Source of the DNA: Pseudomonas sp. GM78
GTDB taxonomy: Bacteria; Pseudomonadota; Gammaproteobacteria; Pseudomonadales; Pseudomonadaceae
Reading direction: 5' to 3'
Assembly: GCF_000282475.1 (NCBI RefSeq)
Contig: NZ_AKJF01000098.1
Location: 1 to 51,913, forward strand
Length of the DNA: 51,913 nt
Shown here: in pieces, positions 5,147-39,218 of the stretch
Layout of the letters: every line of letters begins with the position of its first letter
Numbering within the stretch: position 1 is the stretch's first letter
Made by a program: the position numbers and the translations under genes
Notes under the pieces: model-generated
Seen by the model: the letters and a program-made list of their open reading frames with translations, nothing else
Told to the model about the DNA's origin: nothing
The model's database searches: none

Positions 5147-6226
5147 ATGAAGCTTATGATTCTGGTGCAGCGCACCTGGAACTCCGCAGTCACTACGAAC
5201 CTCCTTCGCTCGCACGTCGAACGTCGCTATGGCGCCCCCCTTGCCGTACTCGGGCTGAGCCTGATCGCTTCAACGACGGTGTTTGCGGCTGACCCTTTAG
5301 CCTCCTGGAATGAAGGGCCCGCCAAGCAAGCCATCGTGGAATTCGTCAAGGCGACTACCCAGGAAGGGGGTAGCCAGTTCGTTTCACCCGCCGAACGCAT
5401 CGCGACCTTCGACCAGGACGGCACGCTATGGGTCGAGCATCCCGCGTATGGCCAATTGTTTTATTGCCTGAGCCGCGTCCCGGCGGTGGTCAAGGCGAAG
5501 CCGGAGCTGGCCAGTGTCGAACCCTTCAAGACGGTACTGTCGGGCGACCGCGCCGCCATGGCGAAACTGACCCTCGATGATTACCTGAAAATCGCCATGG
5601 TGACCCTCAGCGGCATGCCTACGGATGAGTTCAAGCAGCAAGTTCGTGCCTGGCTGGGCGAAGCCCGTGATCCTCGCTGGAAGCGTCCTTTCACCGAGCT
5701 GACCTATCAGCCGATGAAGGAAGTCATGCAGTACCTGCGTGACAATGGCTACAAGACCTACATAGTTACCGGGGGTGGTCAGGACTTCGTTCGCGCCTAT
5801 TCCGAGGAGATCTATGGCGTGCCTCCTGAACAGGTCGTCGGGAGTGCCGGTGCCACCGAGTATGTCTACGACAAGAGCGGAAAACCGCAGTTGATCAAAC
5901 AACCCAAAGTAGTGCTCAACGACAACGATACCGGCAAGCCAGAGAACATTTATCTGATGACGGGTCGTCAGCCAAATGCGGCGTTTGGCAACTCCACCGG
6001 TGACAAGCAAATGCTGGAATACACCAAGGCCGGGCAGGGCGCGCGCCTGGTGATGCTGGTGCTGCATGACGACGCCGAGCGCGAATATGCCTATGGCCCG
6101 GCTCAAGCATTGCCGGAGACCAAGGTAGGTACCTTTACCCAGCCCCTTTATGACCAGGCAAAACGGGATGGCTGGACGGTCATCAGCATGAAAAAGGATT
6201 GGAAGAAGGTATTTGCGTTTGAGTGA
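5147..6226 (+). CDS. Exported HAD-superfamily phosphatase (copy 1)
   Basis: This is a haloacid-dehalogenase-type hydrolase of about 359 residues. The catalytic motif 'DQDGTLW' (nucleophile Asp near 89, acid/base Asp near 91) is followed by the motif II region 'IVTGGGQDF' and the Mg-binding 'GNSTGDKQM'. A long leader ends in a hydrophobic segment and 'VFA-ADP', a good signal-peptidase site near residue 47, so the enzyme probably works in the periplasm as a phosphomonoesterase. The ATG at 5147 was chosen because it aligns with the start of the paralogue; an in-frame GTG at 5138 is possible. A near-identical copy lies at 37593-38669. Flanking sulfatase genes suggest ester hydrolysis for nutrient scavenging. 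Confidence 0.82.
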   Translation: MKLMILVQRTWNSAVTTNLLRSHVERRYGAPLAVLGLSLIASTTVFAADPLASWNEGPAKQAIVEFVKATTQEGGSQFVSPAERIATFDQDGTLWVEHPAYGQLFYCLSRVPAVVKAKPELASVEPFKTVLSGDRAAMAKLTLDDYLKIAMVTLSGMPTDEFKQQVRAWLGEARDPRWKRPFTELTYQPMKEVMQYLRDNGYKTYIVTGGGQDFVRAYSEEIYGVPPEQVVGSAGATEYVYDKSGKPQLIKQPKVVLNDNDTGKPENIYLMTGRQPNAAFGNSTGDKQMLEYTKAGQGARLVMLVLHDDAEREYAYGPAQALPETKVGTFTQPLYDQAKRDGWTVISMKKDWKKVFAFE

Positions 6227-8107: not shown

Positions 8108-8446
8108 TCAAACCCGCTAAAACGGGGCGACCTTACCCGAGGTCGTCCCTGGCCGGAGTAGGGCAGGCATTACATGTCTGAACCTCACTCAAGCAATTGA
8201 CACCGCCTGGTGCCTGGCGACATTGGAAACCAGCGTCGGCGAACGCGAATACGCTCGGTTCGCTATTCACCAGCAGACCGGCGACCTGGAAGATTGGTAT
8301 ATGTCGTAGCGCCAGAAAGTGATCGGCACGGTCGCGTCGAAGTGTCGCGACCAGTTCAAGCTAAGCAGTCACCTTTTGGACGATTAGCGACCTCCACGCA
8401 TTGCGACTGATCCACCCTTGTCCTTCCTCAACCTGGAGGGCAAGCC
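8108..8446. other. Gene-poor gap with a possible ORF remnant
   Basis: No convincing complete gene is present. In one frame, 8178-8309 reads as a natural-looking 43-residue peptide (containing 'AIDTAWCLATLETSVGERE') but lacks a good start codon. An out-of-frame ATG at 8174 suggests a shifted relic. The last 42 bp (8405-8446) match the leader of the second integrase copy. Confidence 0.4.
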
Positions 8447-9067
8447 ATGAACACTATCGCTTTACATCGCCATCAGCCTTGGAACAAAGGAAAGCTTGTA
8501 GGGCAGAAAGCCCCGCTTCGAGTCAGAGATATCTGGGCCATTCGGGTCAGACTTCAGCTCGCGGAGAAGACACGGGATCTGGCTCTCTTCAACTTGGCCA
8601 TCGACAGCAAACTGCGTGCCTGTGACTTAACCAAGCTACGAGTACGTGACATTGCGCATGGGGAGCATGTTTCGTCACGGGCCATCGTGATGCAGCAGAA
8701 AACTCAACATCCAGTGCAATTTGAAATTACTGAGCAAACACGAACAGTTCTGGAGGCTTGGATGCGTCAGGCACATCTTCGCAGTGAGGACTTTCTGTTC
8801 CCGACGCGATTGCATGACTCAGATCATCTCTCCACCAGGCAATACGCTCGAATAGTCAAAGCATGGGTAACAGCCATTGGACTTGACCCGACGATGTACG
8901 GTACCCACACACTACGGCGAACCAAGGCTTCGTTGATCTATCGCAGGACCAAGAACTTGAGAGCAGTTCAACTCTTGCTTGGTCATACGAAACTCGAAAG
9001 CACTGTCAGGTACTTGGGCATTGAGGTAGACGATGCTCTAGAAATGGCAGAGCAGACAGACGTGTAA
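8447..9067 (+). CDS. Short tyrosine recombinase (integrase), intact copy
   Basis: This 206-residue protein is a catalytic-domain-only site-specific recombinase. The expected residues are all present: Arg57 in 'KLRACDLTKLR', His154/Arg157 in 'HTLRR', His180 in 'LLLGHTK' and the nucleophile Tyr189 in 'TVRYLGI'. It resembles FimB/FimE-size enzymes rather than ~400-residue phage integrases, since it lacks the N-terminal arm-binding domain. It is followed by a terminator hairpin and a MITE-like element. A second copy with a nonsense codon lies at 11106-11726 beyond an IS. It may invert or mobilise nearby DNA; the target is unknown. Confidence 0.85.
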   Translation: MNTIALHRHQPWNKGKLVGQKAPLRVRDIWAIRVRLQLAEKTRDLALFNLAIDSKLRACDLTKLRVRDIAHGEHVSSRAIVMQQKTQHPVQFEITEQTRTVLEAWMRQAHLRSEDFLFPTRLHDSDHLSTRQYARIVKAWVTAIGLDPTMYGTHTLRRTKASLIYRRTKNLRAVQLLLGHTKLESTVRYLGIEVDDALEMAEQTDV

Positions 9068-9076
9068 TCTTCAATT

Positions 9077-9101
9077 GCGACGGTCTGGGCCAGACCGTCG
9101 C
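9077..9101 (+). terminator. Hairpin after integrase copy 1
   Basis: A perfect 11-bp stem, GCGACGGTCTG (9077-9087) with CAGACCGTCGC (9091-9101), follows the integrase stop by 9 bp and ends in CTTTCC. The same hairpin follows the second integrase copy at 11735-11759. The T tract is short, so termination may be weak. Confidence 0.55.
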
Positions 9102-9106
9102 TTTCC

Positions 9107-9292
9107 GACCGATTCTGTTGAAAAAGTCGGTGATCCCAAACTGCCTAATCATTGACCGGTGAAAAACCCTTTTTTACACGCTACTACGTGAAATCTGCGT
9201 CTGGAAACCTCTGCCAAAAGTAAAGATTTCAATCTCGGACGCGTGCTTTTCAGCTGCGGAAACCATGGCCGACTTTTTCAACAGAATCGACC
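9107..9292 (-). mobile_element. MITE-like element, copy A (inverted)
   Basis: This ~186-bp non-coding element is bounded by inverted repeats CCGATTCTGTTGAAAAAGTC and GACTTTTTCAACAGAATCG. Its interior, read on the minus strand, matches copies B (11765-11949) and C (38766-38951), including 'GAGATTGAAATCTTTACTTT' and the AATGATnAGGCAGT-type stretch. It is in reverse orientation relative to the adjacent integrase when compared with copy B. There is no coding capacity, so any movement would rely on an enzyme supplied in trans. Confidence 0.75.
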
Positions 9293-9392
9293 CAAAGCGG
9301 TCGTTCACGATCGACTGCTTTCGACCCAGGCTGTGTGAAAACTCCTGCGATTGTCTAATCTTCTGATCGTCTAGATCGTGGTGGGGACGATC

Positions 9393-10781
9393 ATGAAGCG
9401 ATTCATCGAAGGTGAGTCTCGGACGCAAGTCACCTTGCTGCCGGAGTGCCTGGACGATTACGTAGCCGAAGAAAATCCAGTGCGCGTGGTCGACGTTTTC
9501 GTCGATGAACTCGACCTGGGTGCACTTGGTTTTGAGGGCGTCGATCCTGCTGCAACGGGTCGCCCCGCCTACCATCCAGCGGTCTTGCTGAAGATCTATA
9601 TCTACGGCTACCTCAATCGTATTCAGTCCAGTCGCCGGCTTGAGCGTGAGGCCGAGCGCAACGTCGAGTTGATGTGGCTAACGGGGCGTTTGGCTCCGGA
9701 TTTCAAAACCATTGCCGACTTTCGCAAGGACAACGGCAAAGCCATTCGCAGCGTCTGCCGCCAGTTCGTGGTGCTTTGCCGTAACCTCAATCTCTTCTCT
9801 CAATCGATCATCGCCATCGATGGCAGCAAATTCAAAGCCGTCAATAATCGCGACCGCAACTTCACCCAGGGCAAAGTGAAGGCACGCATGCGGCAGATCG
9901 AGCAGAGCATTGATCGATATCTGGCGGCAATGGATTCGGCGGATCGGGCAACGCCCGAAGTGGCTGAGGCCAAAGCCGAGCGGCTAAAAGAAAAGATTGA
10001 AACCCTGAAACAGCAGATGCAGAAACTCAAAGACATCGAGGCGCAGCTTCACGACAGCCCAGACCAGCAAATCTCCCTCACCGATCCAGATGCACGCTCA
10101 ATGGCCACGAGCGGCCGAGGCACCGGAACGGTTGGCTATAACGTACAAACGGCCGTCGACGACAAACACCATCTGATCATTGCCCATGAGGTGACCAACG
10201 TTGGCAATGACCGGACGCAACTCAGCAATATGGCGAACCAGGCGCGTGAGGAGATCAGTGCCGAGTCGCTGACGGTGGTAGCCGACCGAGGTTATTACAA
10301 GGGTCTGGAAATCCTTGCCTGCGAGCAGGCTGGCATCACCACCTTCGTACCGAAACCTCTGACATCAGGCAGCAAAGCCGAAGGCCGATTTGGTAAGCAG
10401 GACTTCATCTACCTTGCCGCATCGGACGAGTATCGATGCCCTGCGGGACAGTTGCTGACCCGGCGGCATTCTTCAGTGGAAGACGGCATGTTATTGCATT
10501 GTTACTACTTCTCGGGGTGCCAGTCCTGCTCAATGCACAAGCAATGTACGACTGGTAAGGAGCGCCGGGTAAAGCGCTGGGAACATGAAGCCGTAGCCGA
10601 TGCAATGCAGGTACGGCTTGAAAATGATCCAACGATGATGAGGCGCCGCCGACAGACCGTTGAACATCCATTTGGAACGCTCAAATACTGGATGGGGAGT
10701 ACCCACTTCCTGACCAAAACCCTGCCGAGGGTAAGCACCGAGATGAGCCTTCATGTGTTGGCCTACACCTCAAACGAATGA
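9393..10781 (+). CDS. IS1182-family transposase
   Basis: This DDE transposase has about 462 residues from the ATG at 9393 ('MKRFIEGESRTQ'), the usual start in this family. An in-frame start at 9378 is also open. The N-terminal DUF772-type domain includes 'RPAYHPAVLLKIYIYGYLNRI'. Catalytic regions are 'IIAIDGSKFKAV' (first Asp), 'VVADRGYYKG' (second Asp) and 'VEHPFGTLKYWMG' (Glu). A central Lys/Glu-rich coiled-coil insert and a Cys cluster ('CSGCQSCSMHKQC' type) are typical. There is no frameshift, so it is probably functional. An 85-bp fragment of the same gene type lies at 20887-20971. Confidence 0.92.
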   Translation: MKRFIEGESRTQVTLLPECLDDYVAEENPVRVVDVFVDELDLGALGFEGVDPAATGRPAYHPAVLLKIYIYGYLNRIQSSRRLEREAERNVELMWLTGRLAPDFKTIADFRKDNGKAIRSVCRQFVVLCRNLNLFSQSIIAIDGSKFKAVNNRDRNFTQGKVKARMRQIEQSIDRYLAAMDSADRATPEVAEAKAERLKEKIETLKQQMQKLKDIEAQLHDSPDQQISLTDPDARSMATSGRGTGTVGYNVQTAVDDKHHLIIAHEVTNVGNDRTQLSNMANQAREEISAESLTVVADRGYYKGLEILACEQAGITTFVPKPLTSGSKAEGRFGKQDFIYLAASDEYRCPAGQLLTRRHSSVEDGMLLHCYYFSGCQSCSMHKQCTTGKERRVKRWEHEAVADAMQVRLENDPTMMRRRRQTVEHPFGTLKYWMGSTHFLTKTLPRVSTEMSLHVLAYTSNE

Positions 10782-10853
10782 TGAGCATCTTCGGTATCTC
10801 AGGACTGCTTGAAGCGATCAGGGCGTGATCCACCCGCGTGATCGTCCGTGAGT

Positions 10854-10887
10854 TGCTGTTTGGGCCGCTGACGCGGCCCAAACAGCA
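10854..10887 (+). terminator. Hairpin in the IS 3' region
   Basis: A perfect 15-bp stem, TGCTGTTTGGGCCGC (10854-10868) with GCGGCCCAAACAGCA (10873-10887) and loop TGAC, lies 73 bp after the transposase stop and inside the IS. There is no T tract, so it may block read-through in either direction or protect the transcript rather than act as a classical terminator. Confidence 0.55.
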
Positions 10888-11105
10888 TTAACGAACGCCT
10901 ATGTAACTGACTAGGGCAATTCGCGATTACGTCTGCTGGTTTCGCAGGCAACGCCCGTAGCTCTCAGCTTTCGAAGTGTTCAGTGCGTTTTCACACAGCC
11001 TGGGTCGGTTGCTGCCTGTTCCCACCGGCCGCTTAGGGTCGAACTGCGACCACCGCTCGTTCTGACTGATCCACCCTTGTCCTCCATCAACATGGAGGAC
11101 ACGCC

Positions 11106-11726
11106 ATGAATACAGCTACTAGATCCCGTCGTCAGCCTTGGAACAAGTGAAAGCTTGTCGGGCAGAAGGCCCCGCTCCGAGTCAGAGATATTTGGGCCAT
11201 TCGGATAAGACTCCAGCTCGCAGAGAAAACACGTGATTTGGCGCTTTTCAACTTGGCCATCGACAGCAAACTGCGTGCCTGTGACTTAACCAAGCTGCGA
11301 GTCCGAGACATCGCCCATGAGGAGCATGTGTCGTCACGGGCCATCGTGATGCAGCAGAAAACTCAGCATCCAGTGCAATTTGAAATCACTGAGAAAACCC
11401 GAACGGTATTGGAAGCTTGGATGCATCGGGCGCGTCTCCGAAGCGAGGACTTTTTGTTTCCGAGCCGATTGCACGACTCAGACCATCTTTCCACCAGACA
11501 GTACGCTCGAATAGTCAAAGCGTGGGTGACAGCCATAGGCCTTGACCCAACGATGTACGGTACTCACACGCTACGGCGAACCAAGGCATCGTTGATCTAT
11601 CGCAGGACGAAGAATCTGAGAGCAGTCCAACTCCTGCTTGGTCATACGAAACTCGAAAGCACTGTCAGGTACTTGGGCATCGAGGTCGATGACGCTCTGG
11701 AAATGGCAGAGCAGACAGAAGTTTGA
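11106..11726 (+). pseudogene. Short tyrosine recombinase, second copy with nonsense codon
   Basis: Aligned with the intact copy at 8447-9067, this gene has the same length, the same 42-bp leader beginning GACTGATCCACCC, and nearly the same protein. Codon 15 is TGA (11148-11150) where the intact copy has GGA (Gly). A downstream in-frame TTG at 11238 would give a 162-residue product that still holds the catalytic Arg, HxxR, His and Tyr but lacks the first ~44 residues. I treat it as a pseudogene; restart of translation is possible but has no visible ribosome site. Confidence 0.75.
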
Positions 11727-11734
11727 CCAACTTT

Positions 11735-11759
11735 GCGACGGTCTGAGCCAGACCGTCGC
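11735..11759 (+). terminator. Hairpin after integrase copy 2
   Basis: The perfect 11-bp stem GCGACGGTCTG / CAGACCGTCGC with loop AGC is the counterpart of the hairpin at 9077-9101. It lies just after the pseudogene stop and just before MITE copy B. Confidence 0.5.
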
Positions 11760-11764
11760 TATCC

Positions 11765-11949
11765 GGCCGATTCTGTTGAAAAAGTCGGCCACGGTTTGCG
11801 CATCAAAAAAGTACGCGTCCGAGATTGAAATCTTTACTTTTGCGGAGGGATCCGGACCCAGATTTCACGTAGCAGCGTGCAAAAAAGGCGATTTCTGCAG
11901 TCAATGATCAGGCAGTTTGGGCAGACCGACGTTTTCAACAGAATCGGCC
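11765..11949 (+). mobile_element. MITE-like element, copy B
   Basis: This 185-bp element has ends GGCCGATTCTGTTGAAAAAG and a GTTTTCAACAGAATCGGCC-type inverted repeat (one change: GACGTTTTC instead of GACTTTTTC). It is in the same orientation as copy C and inverted relative to copy A. It contains the shared interior 'GAGATTGAAATCTTTACTTT'. It lies directly behind the integrase pseudogene and 115 bp before the kinase start. Confidence 0.75.
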
Positions 11950-12064
11950 AAAAGCAGCCTGTCGCTACACTACCCTGTGGTTCAGCGAAAATTGCGCTCA
12001 ATCAGACTGATTGAACCTAGCTGCAACCCAGACCTCGGATATTGAAACCGCCTCAGGTGAATCT

Positions 12065-37592: not shown

Positions 37593-38669
37593 ATGGTATT
37601 CATGAGCTTGGTGCAGCGTATTTGGAACTCCCTTGCCTCTTCGAACCGTTCTTGCTCTTACCTCAAGCGACGTTATGGCGCGCCCCTTGTAATTGGTATG
37701 AGTCTGATCGCGTCAACGGCGGTGTTCGCTGCTGACCCTTTAGCGTCCTGGAATGAAGGGCCGGCCAAGCAAGCCATTGTAGAGTTCGTCAAAGCGACCA
37801 CCCAGCAAGGCGGTGCTCAGTACGTATCGCCGGCTGAGCGTATCGCAACCTTTGACCAGGACGGCACCCTGTGGGTCGAGCACCCAGCCTACGGTCAATT
37901 GTTCTATTGCCTGAGTCGCGTGCCGGCCGCCGTCGAGGCCAAACCCGAGTTGGCTCAGGTTGAGCCCTTCAAAACGGTGCTGTCAGGTGATCGTGCCGCC
38001 ATGGCGAAACTGACTCTCGATGACTATCTGAAAATCGCCATGGTAACTTTCAGCGGCATGCCCACGGACGAGTTCAAGCAACAGGTTAACGCTTGGCTGG
38101 CGAACGCCAAAGACCCTCGCTGGAAGCGCCCCTTTACCGAGCTGACGTACCAGCCGATGAAGGAAGTCATGCAATACCTGCGTGACAATGGCTACAAAAT
38201 TTACATCGTCACCGGCGGAGGGCAGGACTTCGTTCGCGCCTATGCCGAAGAGATCTATGGTGTTCCTCCCGAACAGGTAGTTGGCAGTGCCGGGGCCACC
38301 GAATATGGCTATGACAAAAGCGGCAAGCCGCAGTTGATCAAGCAGCCCAAAATATTGCTCAACGACAACGATGCCGGTAAGCCAGAGAATATTTACTTAC
38401 TGGTCGGGCGTCAGCCCTACGCCGCTTTCGGCAATTCCACCGGTGACAAGCAAATGCTGGAGTACACCAAGGCCGGCAAGGGGGCGCGATTGGCAATGCT
38501 AGTGCTGCACGACGACGCCGAACGTGAGTACGCCTATGGCCCGGCGCAAGGACTACCAGATACTAAGGTAGGCACCTTCACCGAATCGTTATATACCCAA
38601 GCGACAAATGAAGGCTGGACTGTGATCAGCATGAAAAAGGACTGGAAGAAGATTTTTGCATTCGAGTGA
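37593..38669 (+). CDS. Exported HAD-superfamily phosphatase (copy 2)
   Basis: This 358-residue paralogue of the gene at 5147 is nearly identical from the mature N-terminus onward and diverged in the leader. It keeps the catalytic 'DQDGTLW', 'IVTGGGQDF' and 'GNSTGDKQM' motifs and the signal-peptidase site 'VFA-ADP'. An ATG at 37602 is an alternative start. Unlike copy 1, it ends in a strong terminator. The two copies may differ in control rather than in chemistry. Confidence 0.83.
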   Translation: MVFMSLVQRIWNSLASSNRSCSYLKRRYGAPLVIGMSLIASTAVFAADPLASWNEGPAKQAIVEFVKATTQQGGAQYVSPAERIATFDQDGTLWVEHPAYGQLFYCLSRVPAAVEAKPELAQVEPFKTVLSGDRAAMAKLTLDDYLKIAMVTFSGMPTDEFKQQVNAWLANAKDPRWKRPFTELTYQPMKEVMQYLRDNGYKIYIVTGGGQDFVRAYAEEIYGVPPEQVVGSAGATEYGYDKSGKPQLIKQPKILLNDNDAGKPENIYLLVGRQPYAAFGNSTGDKQMLEYTKAGKGARLAMLVLHDDAEREYAYGPAQGLPDTKVGTFTESLYTQATNEGWTVISMKKDWKKIFAFE

Positions 38670-38696
38670 AATGCAGCGGTGATTGAATTCCGCTTG

Positions 38697-38742
38697 CCAA
38701 AAGCAGCCTCTCTTGGGGGGCTGCTTTTGGCCGTTTTTTTTT
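38697..38742 (+). terminator. Rho-independent terminator after phosphatase copy 2
   Basis: A perfect 12-bp stem, CCAAAAGCAGCC (38697-38708) with GGCTGCTTTTGG (38719-38730), is followed by nine T's at 38734-38742. Confidence 0.9.
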
Positions 38743-38765
38743 GCCTGTCACGAACGGCAGAAAGC

Positions 38766-38951
38766 GGCCGATTCTGTTGAAAAAGTTGGCCATGGTTTCC
38801 ACGACAGAAAAGTACGCGCTTGAGATTGAAATCTTTACTTTGAGCATGGGATTCGGGGCTCAGATTTCGCGTATCGACGCGCAAAAAAGACGTTTTCAGC
38901 GGTCAGTAGGGGGGCAGTCTGGGAGAACCGATTTTTTCAACAGAATCGGCC
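38766..38951 (+). mobile_element. MITE-like element, copy C
   Basis: This 186-bp element has ends GGCCGATTCTGTTGAAAAAG and CTTTTTTCAACAGAATCGGC-type, the same interior as copies A and B (including a 'GAGATTGAAATCTTTACTTT' run), and the same orientation as B. No integrase gene is beside it. The flank AGAAGCGGACGTTCATGAGCG resembles the flank of copy A, so some surrounding sequence may belong to the unit. Confidence 0.75.
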
Positions 38952-39218
38952 AGAAGCGGACGTTCATGAGCGACGGCTTGCCCAGAGCTGCATGGCGCCA
39001 AAGGCAAGAATTGTCTCTATGCAATTGAAAATCAGATAGAGTTTTGACGGTTGACGGGACAGCATCAGCGGGAGTTACTCTGTCCCGCTCACCCATCAAG
39101 CATTAATGAGTGACGCGAGAAAAAAGAAATAGACCTAGGTCACCACGGCTCAAACTGCTGAATTGGAAGCCCGCCAGACATGGCGTGGCCAGAAGCGACG
39201 CTCCAATAACGGTGAGTC
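38952..39218. other. Gene-free stretch with a hairpin
   Basis: No gene is supported. An 8-bp stem, CGGGACAG (39055-39062) with CTGTCCCG (39080-39087), lies downstream of the LysR gene's stop on the minus strand. It has no T tract. Confidence 0.4.

Follow-up and report, generated by a model that had tools for sequence, protein, structure and literature searches.

Integrons comprise a tyrosine recombinase, imperfect palindromic sites between genes, and variable content at a fixed chromosomal site. In Acinetobacter, according to the available passages of one account (PMC13141974), pdif modules have inversely oriented 28-bp sites with an 11-6-11 layout, fall into two alternating types, and undergo inversion and exchange at the spacers, and the pdif sites are targets of insertion sequences (IS) of the IS1202 family, as stated in the accessible part of another (PMC10132070). 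Here, we describe a locus in a 51,913-nucleotide stretch of Pseudomonas sp. GM78 DNA (contig NZ_AKJF01000098.1, positions 1 to 51,913; hereafter, the window) that carries two copies of a small tyrosine recombinase (integrase) gene around an IS1182-family element. The locus probably consists of arrayed modules that belong to a dif-module-like or integron-like system of site-specific recombination, with its own Xer-like recombinase of 206 amino acids (aa).

In the integrase module, the gene lies between two inversely oriented 28-bp sites, each consisting of an 11-bp outer arm, a 6-bp spacer, and an 11-bp inner arm. These paired 11-6-11 sites, recognised at about two-thirds of the ends of the loci, are a likeness to pdif modules, as are, within the passages available for the latter, the two alternating module types, inversion and exchange at spacers, and the targeting of the sites by IS. 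Unlike the pdif modules as described in those passages, the system in the window has other arm and spacer sequences (the arms were compared by eye); it also differs in carrying a dedicated recombinase inside one module, in including 40-bp gene-free mini-modules, and, from the Acinetobacter system, in that numerous Pseudomonas genomes and certain megaplasmids carry sites of this type. The tyrosine recombinase and the variable content at a fixed site are shared with integrons, as may be the imperfect palindromic sites between genes, but the 206-aa protein falls far below the cut-off of the integron integrase model TIGR02249 (26 bits against 265), and the recombinase module looks mobile and is found in either orientation at one site. 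A PF00589 catalytic domain (E 9e-20) and nearest sequences of the Xer type, with Cre also among the nearest folds, link the protein to Xer and other simple tyrosine recombinases; unlike these, it lacks a normal core-binding domain, with about 35 residues ahead of the catalytic match. In the passages at hand of a survey of tyrosine recombinases (PMC8138268), no subgroup of this size and structure is described. The repeats R0-R200 and IR1_g of P. fluorescens, some of them thought to be miniature inverted-repeat transposable elements (MITEs), are dispersed and intergenic in the portion of their description available (PMC2718517), and the sites resemble these families, R178, R200, and IR1_g among them, in this respect, a comparison by description only. 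The rulB integron-like elements (PMC4542609) were considered and set aside: as far as the available text goes, they contain three recombinase-type open reading frames and differ from the window module.

A literature search confined to open-licence papers, so that a description elsewhere is possible, found no account that we recognised as this recombinase-module system. There is, in our estimate, an even chance that it represents, alongside integrons and Xer/pdif modules, a third type of gene-cassette system in nature, in which a minimal 206-aa recombinase moves as a cassette of its own, acts on sites of 28 bp, and disseminates gene-free mini-modules of 40 bp, so that exchangeable and invertible gene arrays are built at fixed chromosomal sites of Pseudomonas and, with diverged ends, of other Beta- and Gammaproteobacteria. 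If the recombinase does act on the sites, a widespread gene annotated merely as a tyrosine-type recombinase or integrase would gain a function, one class of Pseudomonas intergenic repeats could be read as recombination sites, and a hidden means of exchanging and inverting genes at conserved loci would come into view.

In each of the two copies in the window, a leader is followed by the tyrosine recombinase gene, a hairpin, and a MITE. The features are as follows.

8366..8393, plus strand: recombination-type site bounding module 1 on the left, with its outer arm at 8366-8376 and the spacer TGGACG at 8377-8382
8383-8393, plus strand: inner arm of the left site of module 1, ATTAGCGACCT
8417..8444, plus strand: hairpin in the integrase 1 leader, in which the Shine-Dalgarno sequence is paired (from leader folding)
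8447..9067, plus strand: integrase 1, tyrosine recombinase, 206 aa, intact
9077..9101, plus strand: hairpin with 11-bp arms, on the inner side of the module 1 right end
9095..9304, minus strand: right site of module 1, split by MITE1 (inner arm 9095-9105, outer arm 9294-9304)
9111..9288, plus strand: MITE1 (178 bp) with terminal repeats GATTCTGTTGAAAAAGTCGG, flanked by the target duplication GACC at 9107-9110 and 9289-9292
9294..9321, no strand: junction of neighbouring units, with an outer arm, the 6-bp TCACGA, and an outer arm in 11-6-11 spacing
9328..11001, plus strand: IS1182-family element with ends AGGCTGTGTGAAAAC (by eye), transposase family NF033551
11008..11035, no strand: link from the IS to module 2, with arm GTTGCTGCCTG, the 6-bp TTCCCA, and arm CCGGCCGCTTA
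11025..11052, plus strand: site bounding module 2 on the left, with its outer arm at 11025-11035, the spacer GGGTCG at 11036-11041, and its inner arm at 11042-11052
11106..11726, plus strand: integrase 2, same family, TGA at codon 15
11735..11759, plus strand: hairpin with 11-bp arms at the right end of module 2
11753..11961, minus strand: right site of module 2, split by MITE2 (inner arm 11753-11763, outer arm 11951-11961)
11769..11945, minus strand: MITE2 (177 bp), flanked by the target duplication GGCC at 11765-11768 and 11946-11949
38719..38952, no strand: separate site resembling a mini-module, without an integrase; its right spacer holds a third MITE (38766-38949, by DNA match)

A preliminary description of this DNA had reported a duplicated leader-integrase-hairpin-MITE module around an IS1182-family element, and all of these parts are present. 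As it stated, one integrase is intact and the other has an in-frame TGA at codon 15; the intact protein is 206 aa long, and the two are 93% identical in protein sequence. The identical 11-bp hairpins that it noted in both modules (9077-9101 and 11735-11759) have no third counterpart: with up to 3 mismatches allowed, the hairpin pattern matched twice in the whole window, each time on both strands, compared with a mean of 0.00 in 100 shuffles. The leader, put at 42 bp, is too short in that description, as the direct repeat upstream of the two modules reaches further and begins at 8373 and 11032. The description also overlooked the inverted bounding sites and placed the MITE simply after the hairpin; each MITE lies inside the spacer of the right-hand site, between the two copies of a 4-bp target duplication, and in module 1 the halves of the spacer stand on either side of MITE1. 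The left site of module 1, diverged in arm and spacer, scores low (10.3 bits) and was overlooked by automatic end picking. Of the 79 nucleotide differences between the two integrase genes, 58 are synonymous, so protein constraint acted on both genes for some time.

The sites were defined from relatives of the recombinase. A protein search returned at least 558, of which the best 80, mostly named Beta- or Gammaproteobacteria, were fetched. The flanks of these relatives, read side by side, gave a consensus left end (...GNCNGCTTT-TGGCCG-GTTAGCGACC...) and right end (...GGTCGCTAAC-CGGCCA-AAAGCNGNC...), with the outer arm NNGNCNGCTTT, the spacer TGGCCG or GGGTCG, and a GTTAGCGACC-like inner arm as site elements; conservation is concentrated at G-8, C-6, G-4, and C-3 of the outer arm, in the whole spacer, and in TAGCGAC of the inner arm. 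Taking at least 14 positions in agreement with the consensus as recognition, the end motif was found on the left at 47 and on the right at 51 of 74 integrase loci, compared with means of 0.14 (maximum 1) and 0.34 (maximum 2), respectively, in 50 letter shuffles of the same flanks. The modules of loci L041 and L081, which are 98.7% identical over 745 bp and are embedded in unrelated flanking DNA, have the spacers as their boundaries; their outer arms are unlike (GGCTGCTTC and GGCAGCTTT), and the inner arms hardly vary. The outer arm therefore seems, from this comparison, to belong to the target rather than to the module.

Breaks of homology at the spacers recur in other pairs of Pseudomonas loci. 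L049 and L121 (99.9% over 3,674 bp) as well as L054 and L218 (97.3% over 2,170 bp) diverge from the right spacer onward, and L196 and L201 (95.5% over 1,819 bp) are unlike leftward of the left spacer. When the ptxD-LysR flank of the module on plasmid pPA942-IMP45 (L121) was compared with L123, L124, and L126, from which the module is absent, homology ended between TTATTGG and CCGGTTAGCG; the right flank of L121 had no match in these three loci, so they do not represent a clean empty site. A conserved flank beside a DJ-1/PfpI-family gene, present in 34 of 268 genomes, marks a shared chromosomal site at which, by eye, 14 of the 20 fetched loci keep the outer arm and spacer (at most one mismatch) and then diverge, and 6 do not. 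At this site, the integrase module of genome G046 is reversed relative to that of L041, so that genomes of different species have the module in opposite orientations at the same place in the chromosome; G256 has a reversed-end hairpin there (by eye), and some of these loci have IS-like ends within the spacer. Between G232 and G246, in which the conserved flank has the same orientation, a 2.1-kb segment encoding a cytosine/purine-type permease and an acetyltransferase is inverted, with both breaks at spacers (1,662 bp at 99.3% identity and 490 bp at 96.1%, G246 being about 0.3 kb longer); the inverted part showed no integrase. Inversion and separate insertion could each account for the module having two orientations at the shared site, and the G232/G246 case is nearer to inversion. 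Of the suggestion in the preliminary description of an undescribed, recombinase-mobilised small element, the part that stands is a recombinase within a mobile-looking unit found in either orientation at one site; the data do not support the MITE as that unit.

The same sites recur without any gene. Of 249 Pseudomonas genomes, 27 have matches to a strict mini-module pattern (spacer, inner arm, a middle of 4-14 bp, inner arm, spacer), and the reversed control matched no genome; the length was 40 bp in all listed matches except one, and together with the outer arms, the spacing is 11-6-11-6-11-6-11. A profile made from such units was run on 434,230 bases taken from the hotspot, the Pseudomonas sp. 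GM78 genome, and the window and gave 90 matches (both strands, E ≤ 1e-3), compared with 0 for the reversed control; these stretches were mostly picked for sites, MITEs, or the hotspot and do not represent a genome-wide density. Mini-module matches were found at the DJ-1/PfpI-flank site in 7 of 18 extended stretches, and in some genomes, they lie between ordinary genes at irregular spacing. Symmetric sites consisting of outer arm, spacer, and outer arm (at most 3 mismatches) were detected in 137 of 149 genomes, with 0-11 per genome compared with 0-3 in the reversed control; among these candidate empty targets in the 149 genomes, none was paired with an occupied relative.

Read at the level of sequence, the module structure, the conservation of the sites, the breaks of homology at spacers, the presence of both orientations at a shared site, and the use of the sites as MITE targets are features of this system, and the 206-aa recombinase presumably acts on the 28-bp sites. 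From these comparisons, we infer that crossover would occur inside the 6-bp spacer and that this would be the route of insertion. The autonomous module consists of the Xer-like recombinase gene with a hairpin at the ribosome-binding site before it, a hairpin after it, and an inverted 28-bp site at each end. Crossover in the spacer would join the inner arms of the module to outer arms supplied by the target, and modules would be inserted, exchanged, or inverted at the spacers; the same sites recur in gene-free 40-bp mini-modules and at the ends of a gene-carrying segment, and IS1182-type MITEs would have entered spacers independently.

Several observations weigh against this model. About a third of the ends at the 74 loci (27 left and 23 right) have no recognised motif, and reversed flanks still reach the threshold at 16 left and 19 right ends, which weakens the count, in part explicably by the near-symmetry of the end motif; our confidence was slightly reduced after this control. 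A loose pattern of outer arm and spacer showed no excess in the whole Pseudomonas sp. GM78 genome (84 matches compared with 222 in the reversed control), and the site model therefore requires both arms or a mini-module. Integrases are weakly associated with mini-modules, being present in 13 of the 27 genomes with and 60 of the 222 without them (p 0.04), and for near-full-length integrases, the counts are 8 of 27 and 37 of 222 (p 0.11). No locus with matching DNA on both sides turned up in an empty as well as an occupied state; the flanks of the window locus, used as queries, yielded homologues of the left and of the right, never joined in the fetched loci; and between the arrays of G183 and G220 at the DJ-1/PfpI-flank hotspot, the breakpoints have no clear site. 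Inverted site pairs alone would predict inversion, and excision would need a direct pair. The structure model of the recombinase is of moderate quality only (mean predicted local distance difference test score 71), and 2 of the 13 MITEs discussed below (L014 and L016) lie in what is, judged by eye, site-like but diverged sequence, which the profile overlooked.

Two other explanations of the sites, each unlikely to a similar degree, have to be weighed. The sites could be real and worked by the host XerC/XerD, as in the Acinetobacter pdif modules, with the integrase as a passenger; the 11-6-11 layout and the inverse orientation agree with the available description of those modules (PMC13141974), and a gene-carrying segment is inverted with no integrase seen inside it, but the arms and spacers are plainly unlike the pdif arms tabulated in that part of the source, and the integrase gene is itself bounded by such sites at about two-thirds of the examined ends. 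Alternatively, the arms and spacers could be a dispersed repeat used by homologous recombination and by inserting IS and MITEs, with a solitary integrase that has no dedicated site. IS1182-type elements and MITEs do insert in the spacers, and the co-occurrence of mini-modules and integrases is weak; however, homology breaks at the 6-bp spacers in several separate pairs, the outer arms vary between near-identical modules (L041 and L081) whose inner arms hardly do, and 28-bp repeats are a short substrate for homologous recombination. We keep to a module system served by its own recombinase as the preferred reading.

In an alignment of 22 proteins, the window copy and 21 relatives picked at 71-97% protein identity to it, R57, K85, H154, R157, and Y189 are invariant and H180 is present in at least 90%; we take these residues to be the catalytic ones (R-K-H-R-H and tyrosine), and they are retained in the relatives. 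The curated Xer models (XerC, XerD, XerS, and XerA-type) scored integrase 1 below their cut-offs (at best 72 bits with a cut-off of 220; the others at most 64 bits with cut-offs of 267-371), with matches beginning at about residue 37-41. Among proteins of solved structure, XerD, an XerC-like protein, XerH, and XerA come nearest in sequence, and the predicted structure has its nearest fold matches in XerA, Cre, and XerH.

Upstream of the gene, folding of 61 leaders placed the ribosome-binding site in a stem in 56 of them, and the stems vary between lineages (by eye). Pairing of the ribosome-binding site is known for transposases, in which it limits expression from read-through transcripts, and by analogy, the leader hairpin would limit expression of the integrase from such transcripts. 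The hairpin 3' of the gene is retained with altered sequence in most of the 37 folded right ends. It may be part of the recombination site, because in several Burkholderiales copies (for example, L079), its 3' arm extends through the inner arm into the spacer; a simple shared terminator is the less favoured reading.

The MITEs were followed in the genome of Pseudomonas sp. GM78, in which a DNA search gave 25 matches and, with one copy lacking an end left out, 13 two-ended copies. Eleven of the 13 are inside a profile-scored site. The 4-bp target duplications are GGCC in 8, GACC in 2, GGTC in 1, GCCG in 1, and GGCC/GGTC in 1, and with respect to the outer arm, 6 copies point one way and 7 the other (by eye, with L014 and L018 uncertain). 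Only the MITEs of the two window modules adjoin an integrase, the other 11 being on contigs without an integrase match or 27 kb from one. As the preliminary description reported, MITE1 and MITE2 (86% identical) have opposite orientations in the two modules. It proposed that the MITE could have flipped next to the recombinase and offered independent insertions in either orientation as the alternative, naming occurrence at many integrase-free loci in random orientation as what would sever the link; this is largely what was found. The opposite orientations most likely, and with little doubt, reflect independent insertions, because the duplications differ between the modules (GACC on both sides of MITE1, GGCC on both sides of MITE2), the orientation is even, and 11 of the 13 copies have no integrase nearby. 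That an integrase-MITE module was duplicated and its MITE then inverted at its position, through the adjacent recombinase or via the terminal repeats, is improbable: MITE1 and MITE2 do pair as sisters within the set of 13, and the ends of the inserted MITE abut spacer and arm, so that it could be an invertible module, but matching changes would have been needed on both sides of the MITE, and the palindromic GGCC leads one to expect insertion in either orientation. On the other side of independent insertion, the two MITEs may come from one lineage or a recent shared source, as each is at most 81% identical to the other 11 copies and thus closest to the other.

The MITEs lack an IS1182 transposase, and the IS1182 element of the window has different ends (AGGCTGTGTG). 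On plasmid pPUV-7 (L119), an IS1182-family element that occupies the left spacer of another integrase module has the ends GATTCTGTTGAAAAAGT and GGCC duplications as in the MITEs. Given this shared end sequence (ends by eye) and target duplication with a full IS1182-type element, we take the MITEs to be miniatures of such an element, with the pPUV-7 copy as the kind of parent. The window element is flanked by CGACCC (9322-9327) and GGGTCG (11002-11007), which are spacer-like and inverted, not direct. The sites are a target of IS1182-type elements and MITEs, and this would explain the clustering of such elements at the window locus.

Further occurrences were noted. At L234 and L252, an IS-type end like that of the window IS1182 element follows immediately after the spacer of mini-modules, and relatives of MITE1 are on 11 plasmid records (10 from Pseudomonas and 1 from Stutzerimonas). 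Sites, mini-module matches, and MITEs are clustered within a few kb on two other contigs of the genome, C13 (L157) and C82 (L158), which suggests further arrays. Contigs C178 and C129 contain partial integrase matches with the hairpin directly downstream, and on C205, the hairpin pattern alone was matched. Integrase modules are carried by two Pseudomonas aeruginosa megaplasmids, at the end of the ptxD-LysR operon in pPA942-IMP45 and together with the IS1182-family element in pPUV-7, and a 92% identical integrase with the same type of end is in an unverified faecal bacteriophage clone (L122, MT837468.1). In the window, a gene fragment at 8185-8358, longer in L188 and L189, is directly to the left of module 1 and stops before its left site, and the site at 38719-38952 adjoins a region that resembles 5284-6214, with relatives matching parts of both 38148-38677 and 5284-6214.

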